A DNA stretch of 64,000 nucleotides, from positions 1 through 64,000 of the forward strand of contig NZ_DF967585.1 in NCBI RefSeq assembly GCF_000971475.1. The letters run 5' to 3'. Below the pieces are notes generated by a model. That model worked only from the letters and a program-made list of their open reading frames with translations. It was not told the DNA's origin and searched no databases. The position numbers were made by a program, and so were the translations under genes. Source of the stretch: Sulfuricella sp. T08 (GTDB lineage: Bacteria > Pseudomonadota > Gammaproteobacteria > Burkholderiales > Sulfuricellaceae). This document shows, piece by piece, positions 1,111 to 63,500 of this stretch; position 1 is the stretch's first letter, and each line of letters opens with the position of its first letter.

Positions 1111-4038
1111 TCATTGCTCCGCTCGCGCCAAATTTAACGCCAGCAACCGCCGCAAGATTTCCTCGTCCGGCATCTCCGGCGTGTAGTCGTTCCAGCCGTA
1201 AGCCTTGGCAACGGCGGCATCCAGTGTCTTATGCGCGTTGTCCAGCCACGCGGGACGGGCATTGTAGAGGTTGGTGAGGGTGCGTTTTTTCAGGTCGGCC
1301 TCATGTCCGGGTTTGGCGACGGGACGCGCTGGGTAGCCTGCTTTTTCTTCTTCGGGGGTGCGCACCCAGTCTACCCACTCCGGCGGGTTGAGCCAGTTTT
1401 CGCGCAGTTTGTTCAACTCTTGTGCGGCGGTGGCAATCTCGGTGGCTGCGGTGTTGGCGTAATCGGATGGCACGAGGTTGGGCGTCAGCCCTTCTGGAAA
1501 TTGGAAAGTCTCGAAGGTGGTGGTTGGTGTGTAGCGTGGGTCATTTCCAGCACCATGCCAAGAACAAACCGCCAGCGCCCAGAGTTCGTGAAAGCACGAA
1601 TGAAGGATGCCGAATGTCGTATTGTCTGAACGGGCAATGGCATAAAGCTTCTGGTCTGGCAGAATACTTTTATCCATCCATACAAAAATGCGGTGCTTGG
1701 CTACTTCTGGAGTAGCAATGTAGCGCGGCAAGCCAGTTAAAGCTTTTCGCATTCCAGGGCGCGCTTCGGCGTGACGCCACCAGTATTTTCGGTAAGCCTC
1801 GCGATTGTTTTTTTCGCGCTCTGGTTTGACATGTTGCGTTACATACTCGAACGGGGCTTCGTACAGCGCGGCATCCGCCTCACTCATCCCTGTGCCGAAA
1901 TCAATAATCCAGCCATCGCGCGGACGGCGCGCCACATCCAGCCCGTTCCATAAAGGCTTGAGTACGTCACTGTTCGGTCGGCCATTCGGATTCGGTAGCT
2001 TGAGCCATTGCCGCGCCAAGTCACCATCAATATCGAATGCGCCTTTTTTCGATGCCCCCATGAAACACACACCCGCATTCTCTTTCAGCGGCTTGGCCTG
2101 AGTGAGATTCAGCCCAGCGCCTGCGGTCAAATCGGCGTGGATGGTTTCAACGGGTTGTCCGTTTAATACGACTGACTGGATTCCCGCCTGCGCGGGAATG
2201 ACGGAAGCGAAGCACACCAGCGATACACGCACCGCTGCGCCTTCGTTAATCCATTCCTCATCGCTCCACGCATTGAAGATTTTGGAAGTGCCGCAGATAC
2301 GCGCCAGCACTTGCTGATTCGAGCCGCCGCGTATGGAGTTGGTGGCAACCAGTCCGGCGCGCTGGCAGTTACCAGCTTCGATTTGCGCCCGTGTTTTCTC
2401 GAACCAATACGTCACCAAGTCCGCGCCACCCGGTACGCGGCCTTCATACACATTGCGCAGGGCTTCGGTGTAGTCATCGCTCAACTCGCCGCGCATCTTG
2501 GAGCCGCCCAAAAATGGCGGGTTGCCGATGATGGCATCGACGGTGGGCCATTGTGCCTCTACGGCTTCACCCTCTCCCCCAACCCCTCTCCCGCTTGCGG
2601 GCGAGGGGAGTAAAAGCACCGCGTCGCGGTTCTCGATGTGATCGAGCGGTTGCAGGATGGGGTTCTTGCGGATGGGGTAGCCATTCTTGAGCATCCACTG
2701 GATTTCGCCGATCCACACGGTGACGCGGGCGAGTTCGGCGGCGTAAGGGTTGAGCTCGATGCCCAGCACATTGGCGGGCGAGGCTTCGATGCTGACCTGG
2801 CGATGCAGGCCGTGTTGTTCGGCTTCGAGGTTGGCTTTGTGTTCGAGGTCTTTCAGTGCGCGCAGGGCGAGGTAGAGAAAGTTTCCACTCCCGCACGCGG
2901 GGTCGAGCACTTTGAAATTCTTGAGCCGTTCGAGATAGACAATGAACGCGCCTTGTGCTTCTTGCAGGGCATTCTTCGAGCCTTTGCCGCCTTTCTCGTA
3001 CAGCGCCATGCGCTCGGCGATGAGGCGTTTCGCTGCTTCCCATTCCGCCGCGAGCGGCTCGACGATCACCGGGTTGATGATGCGCAGGATGGATTGCTGG
3101 TCGGTGTAGTGCGCGCCAAGCTGGGAGCGTTTCTTCGGGTCAAGCCCGCGTTCGAACAAGGTGCCGAAGATGGAGGGCTCGATGCCGCTCCAATTGAGCT
3201 TGGCGGCGGCGTGCAGGGTGGTTATTTCGCTGGTGATGAGCGGTAACACTTCCACCGTTTCGAACAATCCGCCGTTGAACCAGTGAATATCCTCCAGCGC
3301 GAAGTCTCCCCCCTTGCGCATCGCATTGAATAATTCTTCGAAGCGGCTGGAAAGTTTGGCGGGGTCGGCCTGGCTTTTGTCCAGCAAGCGCTCGAACAAC
3401 TTGCCCGGCAGCAGTTCGGCATCTTCGGCAAACAGGCAGAACAGGCACTGATTAAGAAAGTGCGCCACGGTCTGCGGGGCATGGCCTCTGGCGTTCAATG
3501 ACTGCGCGAGGGCGGCGAACTTGCCTGCCGCTTCTTCGGTGATTTCTGAAATGGTGCGTTGTGGGTGGAACTTGTCGGGGTCGGTGAACAGCCAGCGCAG
3601 CTTGTCGAGGTTGGAAGGTGAGGCGATGTCTTCCAGCGCGATGGTGTGAACTTCGCTGGGCGCGTTGGTGAAGTGGGTGTGGATTTCGATGATGTTGGTA
3701 TCGCACACCACGAGCAACGGCGGGTTGTCCAAGGCCAGCGCGTAGGTCATCAACTGTTTCAGGGCTTCGCCCAAGTTGCGCCGCATGGCTTTATATTCAA
3801 ACCCGAAAAAGCCTTTTTTCCATACATCAGCCCAGCCTTGCCCGGCTCCGGTGCGCGCGGCGCCGCGCTCGAAGCAATAGGTCTCATGGCTGGATGGCGA
3901 AGGGGTGGGCACGCCCAACAGGGCGCACAGGTCAATGAAGTGGAGTTGATAGCTGGCGCGCTCTTTGAGCGGGTTATCTCGCCACTTCTCGATGAATTCG
4001 CGCGGGGTCATATTTTTATTTTCCACCGCCCTCTTCAT
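1111..4038 (-). CDS. MmeI-like type IIG/IIL restriction-modification enzyme
   Basis: This is a single-chain endonuclease plus N6-adenine DNA methyltransferase. Asp71 followed by nine residues and Glu81-Tyr-Lys83 gives the D-x9-E-x-K nuclease signature at almost the same residues as MmeI. The SAM-binding motif DPACGSGNF lies at residues 379-387 and the catalytic NPPF at 506-509; the later part should carry the target-recognition domain and helical tail. A start at Met10 (4011) is also possible. Two stretches look foreign: residues about 478-491 (SPASGRGVGGEGE) are encoded by a CCCTCTCC-type repeat, and residues 612-622 (VIPAQAGIQ) by a dRS3-like palindrome. Both keep the frame. Whether the enzyme is still active cannot be told, since the first insert lies just before the catalytic motif and the second after it. 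Confidence 0.88.
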   Translation of the reverse strand: MKRAVENKNMTPREFIEKWRDNPLKERASYQLHFIDLCALLGVPTPSPSSHETYCFERGAARTGAGQGWADVWKKGFFGFEYKAMRRNLGEALKQLMTYALALDNPPLLVVCDTNIIEIHTHFTNAPSEVHTIALEDIASPSNLDKLRWLFTDPDKFHPQRTISEITEEAAGKFAALAQSLNARGHAPQTVAHFLNQCLFCLFAEDAELLPGKLFERLLDKSQADPAKLSSRFEELFNAMRKGGDFALEDIHWFNGGLFETVEVLPLITSEITTLHAAAKLNWSGIEPSIFGTLFERGLDPKKRSQLGAHYTDQQSILRIINPVIVEPLAAEWEAAKRLIAERMALYEKGGKGSKNALQEAQGAFIVYLERLKNFKVLDPACGSGNFLYLALRALKDLEHKANLEAEQHGLHRQVSIEASPANVLGIELNPYAAELARVTVWIGEIQWMLKNGYPIRKNPILQPLDHIENRDAVLLLPSPASGRGVGGEGEAVEAQWPTVDAIIGNPPFLGGSKMRGELSDDYTEALRNVYEGRVPGGADLVTYWFEKTRAQIEAGNCQRAGLVATNSIRGGSNQQVLARICGTSKIFNAWSDEEWINEGAAVRVSLVCFASVIPAQAGIQSVVLNGQPVETIHADLTAGAGLNLTQAKPLKENAGVCFMGASKKGAFDIDGDLARQWLKLPNPNGRPNSDVLKPLWNGLDVARRPRDGWIIDFGTGMSEADAALYEAPFEYVTQHVKPEREKNNREAYRKYWWRHAEARPGMRKALTGLPRYIATPEVAKHRIFVWMDKSILPDQKLYAIARSDNTTFGILHSCFHELWALAVCSWHGAGNDPRYTPTTTFETFQFPEGLTPNLVPSDYANTAATEIATAAQELNKLRENWLNPPEWVDWVRTPEEEKAGYPARPVAKPGHEADLKKRTLTNLYNARPAWLDNAHKTLDAAVAKAYGWNDYTPEMPDEEILRRLLALNLARAEQ
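2180..2199. repeat. dRS3-like 20-bp palindrome inside the MmeI-like gene
   Basis: The sequence has the form ATTCCC-N8-GGGAAT, the layout of neisserial dRS3 units, and its arms extend inward by GC/GC pairs. On the coding strand it yields the peptide VIPAQAGIQ, a well-known translation product of such repeats. It sits in frame within the methyltransferase/specificity part of the protein. Confidence 0.8.
2569..2610. repeat. CCCTCTCC-family repeat inside the MmeI-like gene
   Basis: A palindromic unit of CCCTCTCCCCCAACCC followed by CTCTCCCGC...GCGGGCGAGGGG is located in coding sequence. Other copies of the family lie at 36656-36721, 54570-54684 and 56768-56832. This copy lacks the GGGCGCTTGTTTTGAT tail seen in those. 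It is read through in frame as a Gly/Ser/Pro-rich insert. Confidence 0.8.
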
Positions 4039-4115
4039 TCAGCGGCATTATCGGGTTGGTTTTTACGCAGCGGATCAGAAGTGATCTAGCTCGACATCAA
4101 AGGGGATGGATTTAT

Positions 4116-4196
4116 TTATCCTAAAAAGAAGCAGTTGAAGCCACAGAGAACACAGAGATGGCGCGGCACCGACTCGTCAAGCAGGACACGCCTCAT
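4116..4196 (-). pseudogene. Truncated DUF5615-like (PIN-like) toxin stub
   Basis: A 26-codon reading frame starts at ATG 4196 and overlaps the DUF433 stop by 4 bp (ATGA), the usual arrangement for an antitoxin-toxin pair. Its first 14 residues (MRRVLLDESVPRHL) match the start of DUF5615 proteins, where the early Asp belongs to the PIN-like active site. After that it runs into a CTCTGTGTTCTCTGTGG-type dispersed repeat and stops. The rest of a toxin of about 110 residues is absent. This is read as a toxin gene cut by repeat insertion or deletion; an unrelated short ORF is less likely given the overlap and motif. Confidence 0.65.
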
Positions 4197-4399
4197 GCTG
4201 CCAGCAGTGCTTGCCGGGATTCTTCAAGGAGCGCTACGGCCTGCTCGCGTTTGACACTGGGGAATTCGTCAAGGAAGGTATCCAGATTGTCGCCACCTTC
4301 CAGATAGTCAAACAGGGTTTTGACCGGAACCCGTGTGTCGGCAAAGCATGGGGTGCCGCCAAGGATATCGGGATCAATCTTTACAACGGCGGAACGCAT
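4193..4399 (-). CDS. DUF433 family antitoxin-like protein
   Basis: This 68-residue protein has the family core IDPDILGGTPCFADTRVPV near its start, followed by an LFDYLEGGDNLD...FPSVKREQAV helical segment. DUF433 proteins are small helix-turn-helix-like proteins, usually encoded just upstream of a DUF5615 PIN-like toxin. The ATG at 4399 is preferred over an in-frame TTG at 4417 because a TTGGAGA ribosome-binding site lies just before it. The toxin partner downstream survives only as a stub, so this may be an orphan antitoxin. Confidence 0.85.
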   Translation of the reverse strand: MRSAVVKIDPDILGGTPCFADTRVPVKTLFDYLEGGDNLDTFLDEFPSVKREQAVALLEESRQALLAA

Positions 4400-4488
4400 C
4401 GCATTCTCCAAACACAACTAAAGCTGATTTAATAATACACCACGTCGCGGCGCTCATCCATAGTACGCAACACGTGATGAAACAGTCC

Positions 4489-7047
4489 TTAAAGCCAAAC
4501 CATCAACCCCATCTCCAGAGGATGGGTCAGGAGTTCCTGCCAGGGATAAACGCGGATCTTGTAATCCAGATGACCGCACCGATCGGGGGCCAGATCGAGG
4601 GCGAACAGATGTTCCCCGGTCTCTTCCACGATCCCCTGGAACGAGAAGCTGAAGTGCAAGTAATCCTTCATCTCCTTGCGGGTCGGGCGACGCATCATCA
4701 GCTCGACCACCACATCCTCAGGTGCCAGGCCGTTCAATTTCAGGACGACTTCGAAGCGCACTTTGTCGCCAAACTGAATGTGCTTCTTCGGTGTATCCAG
4801 GCGGCGTATCTCGACGCCCTGCCAGGTAGCGCGGATCTTTGTTTTCCAGACCGAAAGATTTTTCGCGTTTGCGTAGTCATCGCGGGCGTACAGCTCGCCC
4901 TGGCGGCTGGCCTGCAGGTAGAAGCGGGTCACGTATTCGCCCACCATCCGGTTGGAATTGAAGCGTGGCAACAGGGTGCCGATCGAGCGCTTGGAACGCC
5001 TGATCCATTCCGCCGAGTAGCCCATCTTGCCGCGATCGTAGTACTGGGGCACGATACGGTCCTGCAGGATCTCGTAAAAGGTCTGGCTGTCTTCCTTGTT
5101 GCGACGGTAGTCGTCCATGTAGGTTGGTGCCGGCTTGATCGCCCAGCCGTTGGTGCCGTCGTAGCCCTCGCCCCACCAGCCGTCCAGCACCGAGAAATTG
5201 ATCGCGCCGTTGATGCCCGCCTTCATGCCGGAAGTGCCGCTCGCTTCAAGCGGGTACACCGGGTTGTTGAGCCACACATCCACGCCCGCTACCAGTCTGC
5301 GCGCCATACCCATATCGTAGCCTTCTACCAGCAGCACCTTGCCCTCGAATTCCGGCATGTGGGACATCCCTTGAATATGCCGGATTAAATCCTGGCCTGG
5401 GCGGTCGGCAGGGTGCGCCTTGCCGGCAAAAATAAACAGCACCGGACGGTCGGCCTCGGAAATGATCTGGCTCAGCCAGGTTGGATCTTCGAACAGCAGC
5501 GCGGCGCGTTTGTAGGTGGCGAAGCGGCGGGCGAAACCGATGGTGAGGACGTTCGGATTGAGGGGATCGATGTGCTTCAGCAGCCTGTCGAGGTGGGCTT
5601 CGGAGCCGTTGTTGCGGAAATGCTGCTGGCTGATGCGAAAGCGCACCAGTTCGAGCATTTGCGACTTGAGCGACTGGCGCACACTCCAGAACAGGTGGTC
5701 GGAGATCTCGTCGATACGCGCCCAGTAGCCCTGATTGGTGAGATTATGGCGCCACTCGTAGCCGAACTGGTTGTCGAACAGGTCGATCCATTCCTGCGCC
5801 AGGAAAGTCGGCATGTGCACACCGTTGGTGACGTAGCTCATCGGGTTTTCCTCGGGAGCCAACTGCGGCCACTGGCTGGCACAGATGCGCGAGGATACTT
5901 CGCCGTGAATGCGGCTGACGCCGTTGTGAAAACGCGAGCCCCGCAACGCCAGGGCGGTCATGTTGAAATCCGGCCCATCCGGCGTCCTGCCCAGGGAGAG
6001 AAACGCTTCACGGCTGATTTTCAGCTCATGGCACATGTGCTCGAAGTAGTCGCAGACCGTATTTTCGGCGAAATGGTCGTGCCCCGCCGGCACCGGCGTG
6101 TGGGTGGTGAACACGGTATTGCCGGCAGCCGCTTCCAGCGCGCTGGCGAAATCCAGCCCCTCGGCGACCAGGTAGCGGGCGCGTTCCAGCACCAGGAAGG
6201 CGGCATGGCCCTCGTTGATGTGCCACACCGTGGGCGTCAGTCCCAGCGCTCTGAGGGCGCGTACGCCGCCGACGCCAAGAACGCTTTCCTGCATGATGCG
6301 CATGTTGCTGTCGCCGCCGTAAAGCTGGTGGGTAATATCGCGGTCCTCGGGCGTGTTTTCCTCCAGGTCGGTATCGAGCAGGTACAGCGTAACGTGACCG
6401 ACCCGTGCCTGCCATACCTTGACCGTCACCTCCCGTCCCGGCAGGTCGACGGAAACATGCATCTCTTTGCCATCCTCCCCCAAAGCGGGAACGACCGGCA
6501 GGTCTTCGAAATCTGAATCGCTGTAAGTGGCGATCTGGTTGCCTTCGCCGTCGATAATCTGGGAAAAGTAGCCTTGGCGGTAGAGCAGTCCAACCGCAAC
6601 GAAGGGCAGGCGCAGGTCACTCGCCGACTTGCAGTGATCGCCGGCGAGTATGCCGAGGCCACCGGAATAGATCGGGAAACTTTCGTGAAAGCCGAATTCG
6701 GCGCAAAAATAGGCGATCAGATCGCCTTCCTTGAACTGCTCGTGGTTGCTGCCGCGACGCAGCGGCTCGTTGTGGTAGGTATCGTAAGCCGACAGCACGC
6801 GGTTCACGGTGGCCAGAAACACCTGGTCCTCCGCCGCTTCCACCAGGCGTTTTTCGTCCACCCGGCGCAGGAACACCTTGGGATTGTGTCCGACCGCATC
6901 CCACAGGGCGGGATGAAGGCGCGCGAACAATGTCCGGGTCGGCTTGTCCCAACCATACCAGAGGTTGTTGGCAAGCTCATCCAGGCGCAACAGCTTGCGC
7001 GGAATCTTCGGGTTGACCTCGATAACGAAAGTGGTGCCCTGCTTCAT
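4489..7047 (-). CDS. glgP: Alpha-glucan (glycogen) phosphorylase, GT35
   Basis: It catalyses phosphorolysis of alpha-1,4-glucans to glucose-1-phosphate, a cytoplasmic step in glycogen or maltodextrin breakdown. The 852-residue length and features such as FCAEFGFHESFPIYSGGLGILAGDH (residues about 115-140, of which FGFHES and GGLGILAGDH are the marks) fit the shorter bacterial/archaeal GlgP subfamily. The pyridoxal-phosphate lysine lies in EASGTSGMKA near residue 600. The gene stands alone on the minus strand, flanked by dispersed repeats, with no other glycogen gene in the window. The start has no strong competitor. Confidence 0.95.
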   Translation of the reverse strand: MKQGTTFVIEVNPKIPRKLLRLDELANNLWYGWDKPTRTLFARLHPALWDAVGHNPKVFLRRVDEKRLVEAAEDQVFLATVNRVLSAYDTYHNEPLRRGSNHEQFKEGDLIAYFCAEFGFHESFPIYSGGLGILAGDHCKSASDLRLPFVAVGLLYRQGYFSQIIDGEGNQIATYSDSDFEDLPVVPALGEDGKEMHVSVDLPGREVTVKVWQARVGHVTLYLLDTDLEENTPEDRDITHQLYGGDSNMRIMQESVLGVGGVRALRALGLTPTVWHINEGHAAFLVLERARYLVAEGLDFASALEAAAGNTVFTTHTPVPAGHDHFAENTVCDYFEHMCHELKISREAFLSLGRTPDGPDFNMTALALRGSRFHNGVSRIHGEVSSRICASQWPQLAPEENPMSYVTNGVHMPTFLAQEWIDLFDNQFGYEWRHNLTNQGYWARIDEISDHLFWSVRQSLKSQMLELVRFRISQQHFRNNGSEAHLDRLLKHIDPLNPNVLTIGFARRFATYKRAALLFEDPTWLSQIISEADRPVLFIFAGKAHPADRPGQDLIRHIQGMSHMPEFEGKVLLVEGYDMGMARRLVAGVDVWLNNPVYPLEASGTSGMKAGINGAINFSVLDGWWGEGYDGTNGWAIKPAPTYMDDYRRNKEDSQTFYEILQDRIVPQYYDRGKMGYSAEWIRRSKRSIGTLLPRFNSNRMVGEYVTRFYLQASRQGELYARDDYANAKNLSVWKTKIRATWQGVEIRRLDTPKKHIQFGDKVRFEVVLKLNGLAPEDVVVELMMRRPTRKEMKDYLHFSFSFQGIVEETGEHLFALDLAPDRCGHLDYKIRVYPWQELLTHPLEMGLMVWL

Positions 7048-7080
7048 GCTGATTCCTTAAATCTTTGCTAAAAAAGGCAA

Positions 7081-7213
7081 TTCACCGCAGAGGACGCGGA
7101 GGAATTCAAAGGCTTATGTGTCATTACGTGCTCACCAAGAGGGCAGTCAAAGTCTGGTATTAAGCTCTTATTTTTGTTTTTCCTCTGCGTCCTCCGCGTC
7201 CTCTGCGGTTCAA
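7081..7213. repeat. Inverted pair of CTCTGCGTCCTCTGCGG-type repeats
   Basis: The unit at about 7081-7104 (TTCACCGCAGAGGACGCGG) is the reverse complement of that at about 7190-7213 (CGCGTCCTCTGCGGTTCAA), with about 85 bp between. Related units occur at 4141-4158 and 36815-36830. The pair lies between orn and glgP, so a hairpin could form in the orn transcript downstream of its stop. No function is evident. Confidence 0.6.
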
Positions 7214-7227
7214 CAGCTTTTGACAGA

Positions 7228-7776
7228 TTATTCCAACCGAAGGAAATTCTCCCGGTAATACCTCATCTCGCCGATGGATTCATACACATCGGCCAGCGCG
7301 GTATGGTTGTTCTCCTTTTTGAAACCGCCGTAAACCTGTGGCCTCCAGCGCTTGGCCAGTTCTTTCAGGGTGCTCACGTCGAGGTTGCGATAGTGAAAAT
7401 AATCCTCAAGCTTGGGCATGTAGTTCGCCATGAAACGGCGATCCTGGCAGATCGAATTACCGCACATCGGCGATTTTTTTGCCGGAATGTATTCCTTCAG
7501 AAACTCGATCAGTTGGGCCTCGACGGCGGCATCATCCAGTTTAGATGCCTTGACCTTGTCGATCAGGCCGGATTTGCCGTGAGTCGCAGTGTTCCAGGCG
7601 TCCATGCCATTCAGCACCTCATCGGACTGGTGCACGACCAGTACCGGCGCTTCGGCGATGGTCTCCAGGTTGGAGTCGGTGATCACCAGCGCGATTTCGA
7701 TGATGCGATCCCGTTCGGGAACCAACCCGGACATCTCCATGTCGATCCAGATGAGGCGATTGCTGTCTTGTGCCAT
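7228..7776 (-). CDS. orn: Oligoribonuclease
   Basis: This DEDDh 3'-5' exoribonuclease degrades 2-5 nt RNAs and the linear dinucleotide pGpG, finishing mRNA turnover and c-di-GMP breakdown. The first motif is IDMEMSG (Asp12, Glu14); the last is NNHTALADV (His158, Asp163). The 182-residue length is typical. It is divergent from the M48 peptidase gene, with only 57 bp between the starts, so their promoters must be tightly packed. Confidence 0.97.
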
Positions 7777-7833
7777 AATGGAAACCCAGTAATCTTAAAG
7801 ACGCCATTTTAGACCGAAACCACCTGTGACTCC

Positions 7834-9078
7834 ATGACATTTACCCTGATCTTCCTCGCCACACTGGCAATCTCCGTACTCTTGCGCTACTGGCTCGCAC
7901 AACGTCATATCCGCCACATCCAGGCACACCGTGCCAGCGTGCCGCAGAATTTCGCCGACCGCATCGATCTGGAATCACACCAGAAAGCCGCTGATTACAG
8001 CATAGCCAAAACCCGCCTGGATAATCTGCATCTCGTGCTGGAAACCGCACTGTTACTGGCCTTTACCCTGGGCGGCGGGATCGAGGTGCTGTATGGCCTG
8101 TGGCACGGCCTGCTCGGGTCGGGGCTATGGCAGGGCACGGCACTGATACTGAGCGTATTCGCTATTTCCACTTTAGTTGAAATTCCGCTGGGGTTCTACA
8201 GCGCCTTCAGTATCGACGCCCGCTTCGGCTTCAACAAGATGACACCGGCGCTGTTTTTCACCGACCTCGCCAAGCAGATGCTGCTCGGTGCGGCGCTCGG
8301 CATTCCACTGTTACTCGGCGTACTCTGGCTGATGGGGCGGATGGGTGAATACTGGTGGCTCTACGTATGGAGCGCATGGATGGGATTCAACCTGCTGGTA
8401 CTGGCGGTTTACCCCACCTTCATCGCGCCACTGTTCAACAAGTTCACGCCGCTTGAGGATACCACGCTGAAAGAGCGCGTCGGCCAGTTGCTGCAGAAAT
8501 GCGGCTTCCGCGCTCAGGGCTTCTACGTGATGGACGGTTCCAAGCGCAGCACCCATGGCAACGCCTATTTCAGCGGCTTCGGCAAATCCCGGCGGATCGT
8601 GTTTTTCGACACTCTGCTGGAACGCCTCGGCCACGACGAGATCGTTGCGGTGCTGGCCCATGAACTCGGACACTTCAAGCACCGTCACATCATCAAGCGC
8701 ATTGCCCTGATGGCCGCCATGAGCCTGGCCGGACTGTGGCTGCTCGGCTGGCTGATGGACAAGGAATGGTTTTACCACGGTCTCGGCGTCACCACGCCAG
8801 GCACTGCCACGGCACTGCTGCTGTTCCTGCTGGCGATGCCGGTATTCACCTTTCTGCTGCACCCGCTGATGAGTTTTTATTCGCGCAGGAACGAATTCGA
8901 GGCCGACCGCTACGCCGCAAAAAATGCCAGTGCCGACGATCTGGTTCGTGCGCTGGTCAAGCTCTACAACGACAACGCCTCGACCCTCACCCCCGATCCG
9001 CTGCACTCGGCGTTCTACGATTCGCATCCGCCTGCGGCGATCCGCATTGCACACCTTCAGGCTCATGCTAGTATTTAG
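7834..9078 (+). CDS. M48 family (Ste24/CAAX prenyl protease-like) membrane metallopeptidase
   Basis: This 414-residue integral-membrane zinc protease has several hydrophobic segments before and after the catalytic HELGHFKH motif near residue 276, and the third zinc ligand in EFEADRYA further on. The length and layout fit the bacterial Ste24-like branch rather than the shorter HtpX. Bacteria lack the yeast a-factor substrate, so the likely role is membrane-protein quality control (inference). It is the first gene of a rightward run with a cytochrome c, phhB, rsgA and a ychJ-like gene. Confidence 0.9.
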   Translation: MTFTLIFLATLAISVLLRYWLAQRHIRHIQAHRASVPQNFADRIDLESHQKAADYSIAKTRLDNLHLVLETALLLAFTLGGGIEVLYGLWHGLLGSGLWQGTALILSVFAISTLVEIPLGFYSAFSIDARFGFNKMTPALFFTDLAKQMLLGAALGIPLLLGVLWLMGRMGEYWWLYVWSAWMGFNLLVLAVYPTFIAPLFNKFTPLEDTTLKERVGQLLQKCGFRAQGFYVMDGSKRSTHGNAYFSGFGKSRRIVFFDTLLERLGHDEIVAVLAHELGHFKHRHIIKRIALMAAMSLAGLWLLGWLMDKEWFYHGLGVTTPGTATALLLFLLAMPVFTFLLHPLMSFYSRRNEFEADRYAAKNASADDLVRALVKLYNDNASTLTPDPLHSAFYDSHPPAAIRIAHLQAHASI

Positions 9079-9123
9079 TAGCCCATTTCACCAAAACAGC
9101 GACATCAACCCACGGAGGTCCAC

Positions 9124-9432
9124 ATGAAATTTATTACACTGCTCCTGAGCCTGCTGCTCGTCAGCTCGCCTGTGCTTGCTGATCCCTTTCCCAAGGGAGA
9201 CGCCAAGATCGGCAAAACCCTGCACGATAAATCCTGCGTCAGCTGCCACGTTTCCATGGTGGGTGGAGACGGCTCCGCCATTTACTCCCGCCTCGAACGC
9301 AAGGTGAAGAATCCGCAGCAACTCCAGGCTCGCATCCGCAACTGCAATGCCAATGTCGGCGCAAACTGGTTCCCCGATGAGGAGAACCACGCTGCGGCCT
9401 ACCTCAACAACGCCTATTACCACTTCAAATAA
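9124..9432 (+). CDS. Small periplasmic mono-haem cytochrome c-like protein
   Basis: This 102-residue precursor has a Sec signal peptide (residues 1-19, cleavage after VLA) and one haem site Cys38-Val-Ser-Cys41-His42. A clear ribosome-binding site (GGAGGT) precedes the ATG. A small electron carrier is the expected role. The C-terminal half has no methionine where the distal haem ligand normally sits (the only Met after the haem site is Met45, three residues past the haem His), so the axial ligation is unclear. It lies 45 bp after the M48 gene and 4 bp before phhB. Confidence 0.85.
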   Translation: MKFITLLLSLLLVSSPVLADPFPKGDAKIGKTLHDKSCVSCHVSMVGGDGSAIYSRLERKVKNPQQLQARIRNCNANVGANWFPDEENHAAAYLNNAYYHFK

Positions 9433-15865: not shown

Positions 15866-18544
15866 ATGGGACAACATTACCTCAGTACTTTATTCTCTCC
15901 TAAATCAGTCGCGATCATCGGCGCCAGCGACCGCGCCGACTCGGTGGGAGCCATAGTATTCAAAAACATGCTGGAAAGCGGCTTCAAGGGGTCGCTTTAC
16001 CCGATCAACCCCAACCACAAGAAAATCCAGGGCAAACGCGCCTATGCCACGATCGAAGAAATCGGCAAGCCGGTTGAACTGGCGGTGATCTGCACCAATG
16101 CGGCAACCGTGCCCGACGTCATCGAAGCCTGCGGCAAGCACGGCGTGCGCTCCGCGGTAGTGCTGTCCGCCGGTTTCAGCGAAGTAGGCGCCCATGGCGC
16201 CGAGATCGAGCGCACCATGCTGGCCAACGCCAGAACTTACGGCGTGCGCATCATCGGCCCTAACTGCCTGGGTATCATGCGCACCGGCATCGGCCTCAAC
16301 GCCACTTTCTTCAAGGGCAACGTCAAGCCCGGCAAGCTCGCGCTGGTGTCGCAATCGGGCGCGCTCTGCACTGCCATTCTGGACTGGGCGCCAGCCAACG
16401 ACATCGGCTTCTCCAGCGTGGTATCGATGGGCACTTCGGCCGACGTGGATTTCGGCGAAATTCTCGACTATCTGGCATCAGACCCGCAAACCGAAAGCAT
16501 CCTGATCTACATTGAGGGTATCCACAAGGCGCGCGGCTTCATGAGCGCCCTGCGCGCCGCCGCCCGCTCCAAGCCGGTATTCGTGGTCAAGGTCGGCCGC
16601 CATGCCGCCGGCTCGAAGGCGGTGATGTCGCACACCGGCGCACTGGTCGGCTCCGACGACGTGTTCGACGCCGCGGTGCGCCGCGCTGGCGTAGTGCGCG
16701 TGATGTCGATCGGCGAGCTGTTTTCCGCAGCCAAAGCGCTTGCCTCTCCCCACCGCTCCAGCGGCAACCGGCTGGCCATCGTCACCAACGGCGGCGGGCC
16801 AGGCGTGATGGCGATCGACCATGCGGTCGACCTGGGCGTCACTGTCGCCAGCTTGTCCGATCAGACTATCGAAGCGCTGAATAAAGTGCTGCCCGCCACC
16901 TGGTCGCACAACAATCCGGTGGACATCATCGGCGACGCTACGCCGGAACGCTATCGCGACGCAGTCACCATCTGCATGGAAGATTCAGACGTGGATGGCG
17001 TGCTGGTTATCCTCACCCCCCAGGCGATGACTAACCCGCTAGCAGTGGCCAGCACGTTGATCGAAATAGCCAGCCGCTTCAAGAAACCCATGCTGACCTG
17101 CTGGATGGGCGACATCCAGATCAAGGCAGGAAGGGCAGCATTTGCCCAGGCACGCATCCCCACCTTCAGCACGCCGGAATCCGCAGTCGAGGCCTTCTCC
17201 TACATCACCGCCTTCTACCGCAACCAGCGCCTTCTGGCACAGACTCCCGGCCCGCTGTCGCACCGCGACGAACCGGACGTGGAAGGCGCACGCATGCTGA
17301 TCGAAACCGTGTTGTCCGAACGGCGCAAGGTACTCTCTGAAATGGAATCCAAGGCCTTGCTGGCCGCATTCCGCATCCCGGTGGCGAGCACCGTCATCGC
17401 CCGCTCCCCCGGCGAGGCACTGCTCCTGGCCCAGCAACTCGGTTACCCGGTGGCAATGAAAGTCAACTCGCCCGACATCACGCACAAATCCGATGCCGGC
17501 GGCGTCAAACTCAACCTGATGAACGCGCCTGCCGTGCGCGCCGCCTACCAGGACATCATCACCGAGGTGAAGAAAAACCGGCCAGAGGCACACATCGACG
17601 GCATCGCCATCCAGCCGATGGTGGTCAAGCCCAATGGCCGCGAGTTGATGCTCGGCGTCACCTCCGATCCGGTATTCGGTCCGGTGATTACCTTCGGTGC
17701 CGGCGGCACCACGGTGGAAGTGCTGGGAGACCGCGCCGTTGCGTTGCCGCCCCTGAACAGCTTTCTGGTGCGCGAACTGATTGCCGGCACGCGCATCTCG
17801 AAACTGCTCGGCGCCTTCCGCCACATGCCGCCGATCCAGATGGTGGCACTGGAAAGCCTGCTCCTACGCGTTTCAGAGATGGTATGCGAGCTGCCTTGGC
17901 TCAAGGAGATGGACATCAACCCGCTGATCGTAGACGAGAACGGTGCACTGGCAGCGGATGCGCGCGTGATGGTGGACTTCGCCCCGGTCTCCGGCGACCG
18001 CTATGCCCATATGGCGATCTATCCCTACCCTTCCCATCTTGTCACTGAGTGGCAGTTGCCGGACGGCACGGAAATCACCATCCGCCCGATCCGCCCGGAG
18101 GATGCCGAAATGGTGCAGGAGTTCGTGCGCAACCTGTCGGCCGAAGCCAAATACTTCCGCTTCATGAACACCCTGCAGGAACTTTCTCAAACCATGCTGG
18201 CGCGCTTCACACAGATCGACTACGACCGCGAAATGGCACTGATTGCCGTGACCGAAGAAGGAGGCAAGGAAGTGGAAATCGGCGTCTGCCGCTACGCTAT
18301 CAACCCCGACGGCGAATCCTGCGAATTTGCTCTGGTGGTAAACGACCAGTGGCAGCACAAGGCAATCGGCCACAAGCTGATGGGCAGCCTGATGGATGCG
18401 GCGCGCACCAGGGGTCTGAAAACCATGGAAGGCGAAGTGCTGGCGAGCAATCACAACATGCTCAAGCTGGTTGGGACGCTTGGCTTCGCCATCGCCACCA
18501 GCGAGGAAGATTCGGCCATCAAGCGGGTGACCCGTAGCCTGTAA
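15866..18544 (+). CDS. Pat-type protein: NDP-forming acyl-CoA synthetase fused to GNAT acetyltransferase
   Basis: An 892-residue fusion. Residues about 1-450 are the CoA-binding and ligase part (SPKSVAIIGAS, then SQSGAL), about 480-700 an ATP-grasp domain, and about 725-892 a GNAT acetyltransferase. The family includes Salmonella Pat and E. coli PatZ, which acetylate acetyl-CoA synthetase and other proteins. Here the ligase part retains SHTGAL with His256 at the position of the phosphorylated His of archaeal acetyl-CoA synthetases, whereas Pat/PatZ lack it. It may therefore still bind or process acyl-CoA actively. The Acs target is encoded about 12 kb away. Confidence 0.92.
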   Translation: MGQHYLSTLFSPKSVAIIGASDRADSVGAIVFKNMLESGFKGSLYPINPNHKKIQGKRAYATIEEIGKPVELAVICTNAATVPDVIEACGKHGVRSAVVLSAGFSEVGAHGAEIERTMLANARTYGVRIIGPNCLGIMRTGIGLNATFFKGNVKPGKLALVSQSGALCTAILDWAPANDIGFSSVVSMGTSADVDFGEILDYLASDPQTESILIYIEGIHKARGFMSALRAAARSKPVFVVKVGRHAAGSKAVMSHTGALVGSDDVFDAAVRRAGVVRVMSIGELFSAAKALASPHRSSGNRLAIVTNGGGPGVMAIDHAVDLGVTVASLSDQTIEALNKVLPATWSHNNPVDIIGDATPERYRDAVTICMEDSDVDGVLVILTPQAMTNPLAVASTLIEIASRFKKPMLTCWMGDIQIKAGRAAFAQARIPTFSTPESAVEAFSYITAFYRNQRLLAQTPGPLSHRDEPDVEGARMLIETVLSERRKVLSEMESKALLAAFRIPVASTVIARSPGEALLLAQQLGYPVAMKVNSPDITHKSDAGGVKLNLMNAPAVRAAYQDIITEVKKNRPEAHIDGIAIQPMVVKPNGRELMLGVTSDPVFGPVITFGAGGTTVEVLGDRAVALPPLNSFLVRELIAGTRISKLLGAFRHMPPIQMVALESLLLRVSEMVCELPWLKEMDINPLIVDENGALAADARVMVDFAPVSGDRYAHMAIYPYPSHLVTEWQLPDGTEITIRPIRPEDAEMVQEFVRNLSAEAKYFRFMNTLQELSQTMLARFTQIDYDREMALIAVTEEGGKEVEIGVCRYAINPDGESCEFALVVNDQWQHKAIGHKLMGSLMDAARTRGLKTMEGEVLASNHNMLKLVGTLGFAIATSEEDSAIKRVTRSL

Positions 18545-27616: not shown

Positions 27617-27681
27617 CAGATTATACTCCGGCGGCGGGGATTGCTTCACGTTACCCTTTGGTCAGCTTGCAATTGCGTGTG

Positions 27682-28231
27682 CGCTGCGCGCGGATGTTTA
27701 GATGCCGGGGGCTGCCCGGCAGCAGGTTACTTTATTTTGCTTGCCCAAAATATAAGTAACCAAACAAAAGGGCACCCACCCGCACCGGCCCTTCGGGCTA
27801 CCCTCGATTTTCCGGGCAAATCGGGCGGCCGCGTTAAACTCGGCCTTTGGCCTCAGACAAACGCAGCCGACGGCCCCCGATTCACCCGAAAAACCGAGGC
27901 GGTGCAGAGGGGGATTCAAATCGGTTTTGTGAGCGTAGCCCGTGTTTTGGTTGCCCTCCCCGCCGGGGAGGGCTGGGTGGGGCGGTTTTGTTTTGCTTTT
28001 CGGTCCCCTTGGGCCACCGCCGAGCAGCGCAGCCGGGCCGGGAGATTTCGGCGAGGACTGTCTGAGGCCCACAGGGCCGAGTTCCGCAGCCGCCCGGTTC
28101 GGCGAGCAGCGCAGGGAACCCCGAAGGGGCGGTGGAGAGGGGCGGCTTTCTTTGGTTACTTTCTTTAGCAGTTTAAAGAAAGCAACTAGCCCGCCGGGCT
28201 ACCCCCGGCACCTAAACATCCGCGCGAAGCG
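27682..28231. mobile_element. ~550-bp non-coding element with imperfect 39-bp terminal inverted repeats
   Basis: The left end at 27682-27720 and right end at 28193-28231 are inverted copies matching at about 35 of 39 bases (core TCTAAACATCCGCGCG against CCTAAACATCCGCGCG). Just inside each end is a second hairpin built on GGTTACTTT (27726-27761 left, near 28154-28185 right). The interior is GC-rich with runs such as CCCTCCCCGCCGGGGAGGG and encodes no recognisable protein. It looks like a non-autonomous, MITE-like or complex REP-like element. No target-site duplication was identified. Confidence 0.65.
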
Positions 28232-28274
28232 CGCCTTACGAATCCAATATTACTGGTAGTCTGGCCCCGAATAT

Positions 28275-28293
28275 GCGGAATGCAGAGTTAGGC
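28275..28293 (-). repeat. attC-like half-site (inverse core GCCTAAC)
   Basis: Read leftward, 46 bp after the stop of the zinc-ribbon membrane protein gene, the sequence is GCCTAACTCTGCATTCCGC. It starts with a perfect RYYYAAC inverse core and continues like the first arm of an integron attC. The second half (GTTRRRY side) was not found; the inverted-repeat element begins 44 bp further on and may have displaced it. Confidence 0.5.
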
Positions 28294-28339
28294 TGGATGC
28301 GTGATGGCAAGACCTGACCCCGCTAGTTACGATCTCATC

Positions 28340-29716
28340 TTAAGTTGAATATGTAGCACGGACTCTCTTTGACCGCCTAAGGTATGTAAACCAGATTGCG
28401 CATGCCATGAACGTTAGAAAAGCCTGCTTTGCCAGTTCTTCGACCATAACGCTGCTGACCTCAGATGGAAGGTCGGAAATGCCTGAAAAAATAAATGGCA
28501 ATGCAATGCTATAAGCCAACCTCGAAAGGAAATACGCCTTAGCGATTTTTACTGCATTTTGTTTGACCGACCATAAAACAGAGCCCGCATAGAAACTGAA
28601 CGCCATCAACCATATGCTCATTGTTGTTTCAATCGAGACCATTATGCGCATGCTTGGAAATGAACTGAAAAGGGACGCAGTTGCCTCCCACGCTCTGATT
28701 AACTCCACAATCGTTGAGAGCGGCGAAAGAATTGTAAGGGATATACAGAGGAATGCCAGCCACCCTTTAACTCCTTTCAACGTGGCGTCAGCCGTAGCAA
28801 CTTTCGTAACTGTTGGCTGTACCACGGGTGGCAACAAAATCGCCGACGCCTGAGTAGAGCCCACGGCAGCCCCGCATTTGTGGCAGAAATGGGCGCCGAT
28901 GAGAATCTCTGAGCCACATTGAGTGCAGTACATATTCCCGACTTCTTTCTGCGCTATCTGCAAACCATCTTCGGATGGATCTTCCCGAGAACCAGTCTCA
29001 GCTATAGATCTTTGTGTACCTTGACCTTGGAAGCCATAAATTATCCACTGATAACCCTTTAGTCCAACAAGCACTGCGAAAGGGGGAATAACAAGGTTCA
29101 CAAAGAATGAATCACTATCCCAGTAATCGAAATAATGCCCGAGAAATTCAAAGCTAGTATTCGTGCGGAAAAGAACGAATAGCGCCCATACGACAGAACA
29201 GATAAGGTAGGCACGTCCGAACCGACCAAGGCCATTCAATTTCACTTTGAGCCCTATGGTCGGAGGGGGAGATAGGGCGGAATGCAGTGCTATCGCCCTC
29301 TCAATTTTTGCGGACTTATTTGCCCGAAATTCATCGTCAGTCGCAAGTATCCGTTCAAATACATCAAGGATATTGGTTGGTGGCGTATGCCGCTTGAGTT
29401 GTTCAGCATCCGACCGTTTTGAGATCATGCTAAACATAGGCTGTAAATCTGAAGTAGGTGCAACACCGATAGCCAAGTATGCCGCCCAAGCGTCCGTAAT
29501 CTTCTTGGTGTCATCGTCATTGAATTCTCGGCCGGAACTCCCCAGCCAATTTTCAATTGTTTGCCATTCCGCTCTAAGCTGGGAAGAAGCCTTGGGATCA
29601 AGAGCCATGTCGCGCAACACATTGATGTAGAACAGTCCCAAGTCCAACAAAAAGCCATGCCCCGATGCATCGTCGGCAGCAATCAATAGCGTTCGGGTGC
29701 TTGAGTCGTAGGGCAT
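28340..29716 (-). CDS. Zinc-ribbon membrane protein of unknown function, probable integron cassette gene
   Basis: A 458-residue protein. The N-terminal 150 residues are helical and soluble, followed by two membrane segments (about 165-215). A zinc ribbon with CTQCG and CHKCG lies near residues 265-285. A C-terminal multi-pass region begins KGVKGWLAFLCISLTILSPL and resembles DUF2569. No function can be assigned. GC content is lower than in neighbouring core genes. It is followed by an attC-like half-site and preceded by a full attC-like site, so it fits a gene-cassette arrangement. Confidence 0.7.
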   Translation of the reverse strand: MPYDSSTRTLLIAADDASGHGFLLDLGLFYINVLRDMALDPKASSQLRAEWQTIENWLGSSGREFNDDDTKKITDAWAAYLAIGVAPTSDLQPMFSMISKRSDAEQLKRHTPPTNILDVFERILATDDEFRANKSAKIERAIALHSALSPPPTIGLKVKLNGLGRFGRAYLICSVVWALFVLFRTNTSFEFLGHYFDYWDSDSFFVNLVIPPFAVLVGLKGYQWIIYGFQGQGTQRSIAETGSREDPSEDGLQIAQKEVGNMYCTQCGSEILIGAHFCHKCGAAVGSTQASAILLPPVVQPTVTKVATADATLKGVKGWLAFLCISLTILSPLSTIVELIRAWEATASLFSSFPSMRIMVSIETTMSIWLMAFSFYAGSVLWSVKQNAVKIAKAYFLSRLAYSIALPFIFSGISDLPSEVSSVMVEELAKQAFLTFMACAIWFTYLRRSKRVRATYST

Positions 29717-29787
29717 TTGGTTGCTCCAGGAAATTCGGTGCGGAAATTCGGGGTTCGGATTCTGACCCCTCGGATTCCCTTGCTGAT

Positions 29788-29868
29788 GGCTAACGCTCCA
29801 CTTGAGCCGCGGCTTGCCTTGGAGCGCAGCGGAAGGGTAAGCCGTCGGACTCGAAGTGGTTGTTAGCG
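29788..29868 (-). repeat. Integron attC-like recombination site (81 bp)
   Basis: Read leftward, the ends are CGCTAAC (29868-29862) and GTTAGCC (29794-29788). GCTAAC pairs with GTTAGC, then comes an unpaired spacer, then CCACTT pairs with AAGTGG followed by GAG/CTC with one extra unpaired base, then CGGCTT pairs with AAGCCG. Outer box, spacer, inner box with an extrahelical base and a variable loop are the hallmarks of attC. It lies just downstream of the 84-residue gene and upstream of the 458-residue gene, as expected between two cassettes. No integrase is in the window. Confidence 0.75.
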
Positions 29869-29948
29869 CTATTGCGGACTAAGTACATAAATTGTTTCTT
29901 ACGCATCTTAGCTCAGCCCTATTAAATCATGCTTACTCAGGGGACACC

Positions 29949-30203
29949 CTAAACATCCCCCCCTGAGATTGCCCTGTCTCTCAGTGATTCCATCTTGGTA
30001 AGAATCCTTTTGTAGAGTCGTGCCGCCTCATCCGCCTCTTCTATCATTATGGGCAGAAGTTCCTTGCCATCGTCATCAAAAGCCGAGAGCCCGCTGTTCT
30101 TCAATTCGATTAGCCTATCTCGCTGTCCTTCTGCGCGATCCAAAGAGTCCTTCCACTGGTCACAATATACTTTGAGATAAATAATTCGATTTTCTGTTGC
30201 CAT
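29949..30203 (-). CDS. Small coiled-coil hypothetical protein, probable cassette gene
   Basis: An 84-residue acidic helical protein starting MATENRIIYLKVYCDQWKD with a likely coiled coil over most of its length. The ATG at 30203 is chosen over an upstream start at 30251 because GGGGAAGAA precedes it. No family is recognised. The gene sits between an attC-like site (29788-29868) and a GTTAGCG core (30228-30234), which would make it a cassette of about 440 bp. Confidence 0.65.
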   Translation of the reverse strand: MATENRIIYLKVYCDQWKDSLDRAEGQRDRLIELKNSGLSAFDDDGKELLPIMIEEADEAARLYKRILTKMESLRDRAISGGDV

Positions 30204-30227
30204 TTCTTCCCCCTCGATCCTGTATTG

Positions 30228-30234
30228 CGCTAAC
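30228..30234 (-). repeat. Possible cassette boundary core site GTTAGCG
   Basis: Read leftward, GTTAGCG lies 25 bp upstream of the 84-residue gene and matches the 7-mer at the inverse-core end of the attC-like site. It could mark the upstream cassette junction. A lone 7-mer is weak evidence. Confidence 0.35.
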
Positions 30235-30393
30235 GTAAAGTAGACCCCCATAAAACACTAAAAATATTATCGGGTTGGTTTATAAACATGACAACGACTC
30301 TAAGCTTAATTTAAAATCAAGACAACCAAATATTTATTGGGCATTTTTTCGGCTTTTAACACCCCGCCTACCCGCTCCAGCAACGAGCATAAA

Positions 30394-62861: not shown

Positions 62862-63043
62862 GATAATAACCATAGCAAATACAAAGACTTATGACATCTG
62901 ACTCTCTCTCCATTGATCACAATTTCCTACTAATAACTAGTTTAGTTCACATAACATATTGAATAATTGAAATAATATTGAAATGAAGAAACACTTCATA
63001 GTGGGAAGTGATATTGCTTAGGGCGGGGGAAATTGGAGCTACC

Positions 63044-63214
63044 ATGGTCAATCAGCACTCAGAGGTTCACCAGTACATCTGCGACGGAAGAACGCATTGC
63101 TCTTAGATAGCATCATGCGAGGAAGCAACTTACTTCCTGAAAAACTGTTACGGAACAGAAATGGATGGAGACAACGATGGTGTTCCTTGCGAGCAGCAGT
63201 GGTGCAATCGATAA
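63044..63214 (+). pseudogene. Broken excalibur calcium-binding domain gene
   Basis: The frame reads QYICDGRTHCS, then an in-frame TAG at 63104-63106, then IASCEEATYFLKNC and EMDGDNDGVPCEQQWC, which together form an excalibur domain with its D-x-D-x-D-G-V-x-C calcium loop. Elsewhere this domain usually reads CSQM at the break, so a CAG to TAG change would explain the stop. The upstream half, which would supply a signal peptide, is not in the same frame. It looks like a decayed gene for a small secreted protein. Confidence 0.65.
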
Positions 63215-63500
63215 CAAATTACCGAATGCCACAGTGCTAACACTCCGGTCATCCGGACGCCCTGTAAGCGGGACGTTTCGCATCGGCATGGCAGCGCGGG
63301 CGCCTGTTAGCTTCACGTTGAAGGTCCTAAGGGGTCGGGTACCGAAGTTCGAGTTTCCCGGTAGCAGACGCTGGAGTTGATCCACCAACCTTGCTGCGGC
63401 TTCAAGAATAGCGCGCTTTGAGCCCTGTTTCTATCATGGAATCCGGATACCCGAATTCGCTTTTGGCATTCGTGCTTTTTGCCGTGTTAAACTTTTCCAT

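Follow-up and report, generated by a model that had tools for sequence, protein, structure and literature searches.

The stretch of Sulfuricella sp. T08 DNA analysed here (the window, 64,000 nucleotides of contig C13 of the genome under study, G000; other G numbers denote the relatives compared with it) contains, between the genes acs and yhdP, a locus that we take with good confidence to be a chromosomal integron that has lost its integrase gene intI and whose attI site has since gained or shed cassettes through an IntI supplied in trans. An earlier note on this DNA, made from the letters alone, had claimed that integron cassettes lie here without an integrase nearby, and this was borne out: no match to TIGR02249 was found on contig C13.

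The sole complete attC site of the locus, attC1, lies at 29788-29868 on the minus strand. The note had proposed that the hairpin at this position folds as an attC, and it does: the hairpin is present, its DNA MFE is -23.6 kcal/mol (z = -2.33), and only 4 of 200 shuffles folded equally well. When the 64 kb were ranked with a rule-based attC score, which combines the match between R'' and R' with a bulge-tolerant L''/L' helix, attC1 came out on top, with 20.5 on the minus strand and 17.0 on the plus strand; 20.5 was reached in 2/300 random 64-kb sequences of matched dinucleotide content. Read on the minus strand, R'' is CGCTAAC and R' is GTTAGCC, and the order of elements is R'', a 9-nt spacer, an L'' arm with extrahelical bases, a variable loop, L', and R'. 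One unpaired base had been described in the inner box; unpaired bases are indeed present, but there is more than one, since C, T, and A are all extrahelical in the 5' arm.

The note had suggested checking the site by a covariance search. Both models used for it were built in this analysis as substitutes for the IntegronFinder attC model. The narrow model R1, made from 9 attCs that belong to the main array of this genome on contig C59, failed to recognise attC1 (4.8 bits, filters off), and because of this miss a broad model, R2, was built from 82 attCs of relatives with the window left out. R2 matched attC1 on the minus strand at 21.3 bits (E = 0.0072 over the 64 kb), against 5.4 bits on the plus strand. 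This score is only moderate, and the E-value is not significant alone when scaled to the 3.4-Mb genome, so the identification of attC1 leans on its context as well. A search of the window against Rfam at gathering thresholds returned no match. Elsewhere in the window, R2 also picked out a second, lone attC at 63235-63323 on the plus strand (31.8 bits, E = 1.9e-5), which sits behind a decayed frame at about 63043-63212, named Excalibur-like by reading, and for which no left cassette end was seen.

The R'' box of an integron cassette should match the cassette's own left end. For the cassette ending in attC1, R'' (CGCTAAC) and the left end (GTTAGCG) are complementary at 7/7 positions, and cassette 1 is therefore taken to span 440 bp on the minus strand, from the attI core at 30233 to the R' core of attC1 at 29794, with the gene orfA inside it. 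The same rule is obeyed by most cassettes in the complete integron on C59, in a comparison that excludes the rows for the first C59 cassette and for cassette 1 of G005. The product of orfA (29949-30203, minus strand) is 84 aa long and belongs to no known family, having neither a Pfam or PADLOC match nor a convincing NCBIfam match, and neither 399 genomes of the order nor plasmids yielded a homologue. Cassette 2 contains orfB (28340-29716, minus strand), whose 458-aa product combines an N-terminal domain with a zinc ribbon and a DUF2569 membrane domain (Pfam PF13240 and PF10754, both above cut-offs). The N-terminal domain occurs in some plasmid hypothetical proteins at 30-35% identity, a distant DUF2569 relative is found in G386 with attC absent nearby, and comparison to solved structures yielded no convincing match. 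As proof of cassette mobility, homologues of the two genes were of no use; the one closer DUF2569 relative has no attC nearby. With GC contents of 46.7% and 47.6% for orfA and orfB against 58.2% for the window, the note's description of two same-strand, lower-GC genes flanking the attC holds.

The half-site GCCTAAC reported after the second gene is present at 28287-28293, but it is really the start of a truncated second attC, in which cassette 2 terminates. This site, with GCCTAAC as its R'' followed by a partial L'', makes up the array tail at 28276-28324 on the minus strand; R2 does not score it as an attC (6.0 bits). The tail is shared with the congener G005, where 17648-17731 of locus L087 is 90% identical to window 28241-28324, and part of it also matches attC a11 and the 3' tail in the genome's C59 array. 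Directly beyond it, at 28241-28275 on the minus strand, lies ancestral flank that is conserved in G005 and, from about 28252, also in G003. A cassette 3' tail, GGGGTCAGGTCTTGCAATCACGCA-CCAGCCTAACTCTGCATTC, is common to window 28276-28320, L010:3072-3117, L100:3955-3998, and L087:17648-17731, and the genes ahead of it otherwise differ. Beside yhdP, at 27641-28240, there is a GC-rich repeat of about 600 bp with inverted ends, which has an 81% copy at the corresponding position in the congener G003; there are also partial copies near the C59 integron (L011:708-1364).

At the other end of the array, attI was recognised when the stretches that separate intI from the first cassette were compared across many integrons. 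Window positions 30228-30372 (minus strand) are 79-84% identical to the regions upstream of intact intI in G010, G008, and G015, and by this homology to the attI regions of intact integrons they are a complete orphan attI together with the intI-attI promoter region. The recombination core, ACG/TTAG (cut between ACG and TTAG), lies near 30230-30236. A promoter scan returned a candidate cassette promoter Pc at 30266-30294 on the minus strand (TTGTCA-N17-GATAAT, 10/12 matches, a consensus match only), and a candidate for the former promoter of the now absent intI at 30288-30317 on the plus strand (ATGACA-N18-TAAAAT), whose TTTAAAAT is present also in G010 and G008. The integrase gene itself has left a scar at 30369-30388 (plus strand), where the 5' end of intI remains for about the first 4 codons, with the start codon lost, and is then fused to the acs terminator; the window reads TTTTAACACCCCGCC-TACCCGC where G010 reads TTTTTAACACCCCGCCATGCCCACC. 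G000, G005, and G003 can be aligned across this junction without a gap.

The neighbourhood of the locus points the same way. To the right of the window cassettes stands acs, and in the congeners G010 and G006 intI directly adjoins this gene, in the orientation expected if the array extends to yhdP; at that position attI alone is left in the window. In G012, from another genus, the gap between acs and yhdP is about 75 bp. Two other MAGs related to the lineage carry about 9 and about 6 attCs in arrays upstream of yhdP, which identifies the acs-yhdP interval as an integron locus. Since the acs terminator of G010 and G006 differs from that of the window, and the attI type of G006 at this locus is also a different one, the integron may have arrived already without intI. 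Extra copies of the acs 3' end were seen at L087:16622-16708, between acs and yhdP in G005 (97% over 29 aa), and at L137:6219-6338, upstream of yhdP in another MAG (55%); they are possibly traces of element insertion at the acs 3' end.

Two alternatives in which no integron ever stood at this place can be weighed at this point. Free cassettes could have been put by IntI into a non-classical chromosomal site (attG), as the intact IntI and the attC-like sites outside the main array would fit, and such insertion is documented according to papers that cite Loot et al. 2024 (10.1038/s41564-023-01548-y). This was our initial idea, dropped because the region upstream proved to be attI: rather than a bare core there are about 145 bp whose homology to attI/PintI regions takes in the start of intI, and G010 and G006 carry intI at the same place, leaving the attG explanation very improbable. 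That a chance hairpin lies between two unrelated orphan genes, with no integron at all, would suit the 4.8 bits of R1 and the weak genome-wide E-value of R2, but can practically be discounted given the attI homology, the own-end complementarity, the rarity of the score among random sequences, the R2 match on the right strand, and the comparative data that follow.

Evidence that cassettes changed after the loss of intI comes from the comparison of G000 with G005. In a tree of acs and glnE these two genomes belong to one clade, with G003 in the neighbouring clade, and the scar common to all three across two clades thus predates their split. To the left of the core, G000 and G005 are 86.6% identical over 300 bp; over the next 400 bp to its right, identity is 38.7% against a shuffled mean of 42.4%. 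At the far end of the array, including the truncated attC, they are again 86-90% identical, so that only the genes between differ, and the junction of attI with the first cassette falls on the CGTT core in G000 as in G005. A second orthologous pair of orphan attI sites, in G006 (contig C57) and G002 (contig C4), both without intI, shows the same pattern, with 90.7% identity on the left and 46.7% on the right (shuffled maximum 50%). As G000 and G005 share a junction without intI and yet have unrelated cassettes past the core, the cassettes changed after intI was gone, and the join at the core in both genomes argues for site-specific recombination after the loss and hence for an IntI from elsewhere.

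The same comparison bears on two further alternatives. One holds that the locus is a static dead remnant, from which intI and most cassettes were deleted, and that G000 and G005 came to differ only by deletions in what was once a longer shared array, no integrase having acted after intI was lost. The truncated last attC and the decayed neighbours would agree with it, as would precedent, static arrays after loss of IntI being usual in Xanthomonas (PMC12444791) and assumed for Treponema phagedenis (PMC3607928). We nevertheless regard it as unlikely, since ordinary deletions are not expected to end at a CGTT-core join twice, and excision at attI from a longer array itself needs an integrase. The other, that cassettes were swapped by homologous recombination between attI-region copies at several places and not by an integrase, draws on the many orphan attI copies, which are similar within and between genomes. 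Here, however, the recombination core is where the similarity breaks off, not some arbitrary position, and because the array tail is kept too, a double crossover would be required, which makes this route more doubtful still.

An IntI acting in trans would therefore most simply account, on the sequence comparisons, for the change of cassettes after the loss of intI. A chromosomal integron at acs-yhdP would have lost intI and been left with its promoter/attI region, two cassettes, and the old array tail, after which cassettes would have been inserted or excised at the orphan attI with IntI supplied in trans. The C59 integron could be the supplier in G000 now; its IntI goes with a different attI type than that of the window, and could serve the window attI in trans. 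In G005, an assembly of 2 contigs, no intI was found at E <= 1e-60, so the helper integrase there would since have been lost or be of outside origin.

That the genome has no integrase was an assumption we had to drop: contig C59 encodes an intact IntI (491 bits with TIGR02249, cut-off 265), next to which attI and about 14 cassettes were read. This is a complete sedentary integron (locus L010, C59:205000-224900), its array at about 1430-9330 and intI from about 9440 within the locus, and the sequences on either side of it are conserved in the congeners G011 and G003. By reading, its cassettes include a DNA-3-methyladenine glycosylase-like gene, GNAT acetyltransferases, and a toxin-antitoxin-like pair. 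The window locus resembles it in attI, cassette orientation, and attC architecture, and differs in that the C59 integron has kept intI and about 14 cassettes and carries a different attI type. Outside this main array, about 17 attC-like sites were found in the genome. Contig C54 holds an integron (L007/L029, C54:116457-118125) whose intI is reduced to a stub of 51 codons and whose attI region is shortened; it has cassettes and two attC sites. Contig C67, on which there is no intI match, has an attI-like site, CTACTTTACGTTGGG (L025, about 1207), ahead of two attCs.

Orphan attI sites outnumber complete integrons of the same attI types in the genus, in counts that are approximate because several genomes are fragmented MAGs. 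Of the places that have the window's attI type, 3 possess a full intI, one a 153-aa stub, and about a dozen no detectable intI; most of the intI-less sites precede attC sites, and a few have a damaged core. For the C59 type, 3 places have intI and about ten have none or a stub, while intI is present at all six places (6/6) with a third attI type. The orphan attI loci (L119-L132, L142-L151, and window 30369-30388) mostly keep 0-50 codons of the intI 5' end. Were the cuts distributed evenly over the roughly 325 codons of the gene, longer stubs would be expected. The short stubs may stem from selection for retaining attI and Pc, or from the deletion mechanism.

Assigning the locus to a known class is less straightforward. 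A cassette with its attC in the same orientation is present, as the strand of attC1 in R2 and the own-end complementarity indicate, and so is an attI recognised by homology, but no integrase gene stands beside it as in a complete integron. The earlier note had called the locus a CALIN-type remnant. It was right about cassettes without an integrase nearby, the genome's only full IntI being on another contig, but attI and promoter are kept, and one complete attC plus a truncated one falls short of two attC sites, the default CALIN threshold of IntegronFinder 2 (PMC9024848). "Remnant" is apt in that intI has been lost; the implication that the locus is dead is opposed by the cassettes that differ from those of G005 after the loss. 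The locus does fit the definition of a SALIN, a single attC without an integrase (term in PMC12690207), a label that ignores the retained attI. It is no attG insertion either, where the joined site is neither attI nor attC, because here the joined site is homologous to attI. With a 145-bp attI/promoter region at the left end of its array, the locus is better described as an integron minus intI than as an attC-only cluster.

Compared with described systems, the locus shares with CALINs and SALINs attC-bearing cassettes and no intI within reach, and departs from them in retaining attI and a promoter region with its one complete attC. As IntegronFinder detects no attI beyond class 1 (PMC9024848), it does not distinguish loci of this kind from clusters of attC alone. 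The ilvD integrons of Xanthomonas (PMC12444791) are likewise chromosomal and beside a conserved gene, with intI repeatedly inactivated or deleted, cassettes left behind, and CALINs elsewhere; there, however, the same intI defect usually means identical arrays, whereas here two species share a scar and have different cassettes. In the Treponema phagedenis remnant (PMC3607928), attC sites and cassettes also persist after intI loss, but that study centred on attC, not attI, and describes the remnant as static. The attG insertions, as papers citing Loot et al. 2024 describe them, also place cassettes outside a complete integron with IntI in trans, but the receiving site here is an attI homologue rather than a non-classical core.

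Integrase-less arrays are already known, and an orphan attI that still exchanges cassettes is less documented. Integron loci without intI are classed with attC clusters and regarded as static leftovers. In the present case attI can be recognised by homology, and the shared intI scar serves as a time marker for cassette change between species, which turns continued cassette exchange at integrase-free attI sites into a testable claim. The orphan attI with its Pc would remain a usable docking and expression site for cassettes. Tentatively, and with more doubt than conviction, one might extend this to the genus, where the norm would be one integrase and many docking sites, with several orphan attI sites per genome, each with promoter and cassettes, refilled over species divergence by a single IntI in trans. 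The locus suggests that surveys seeking only attC and intI would miss working platforms.
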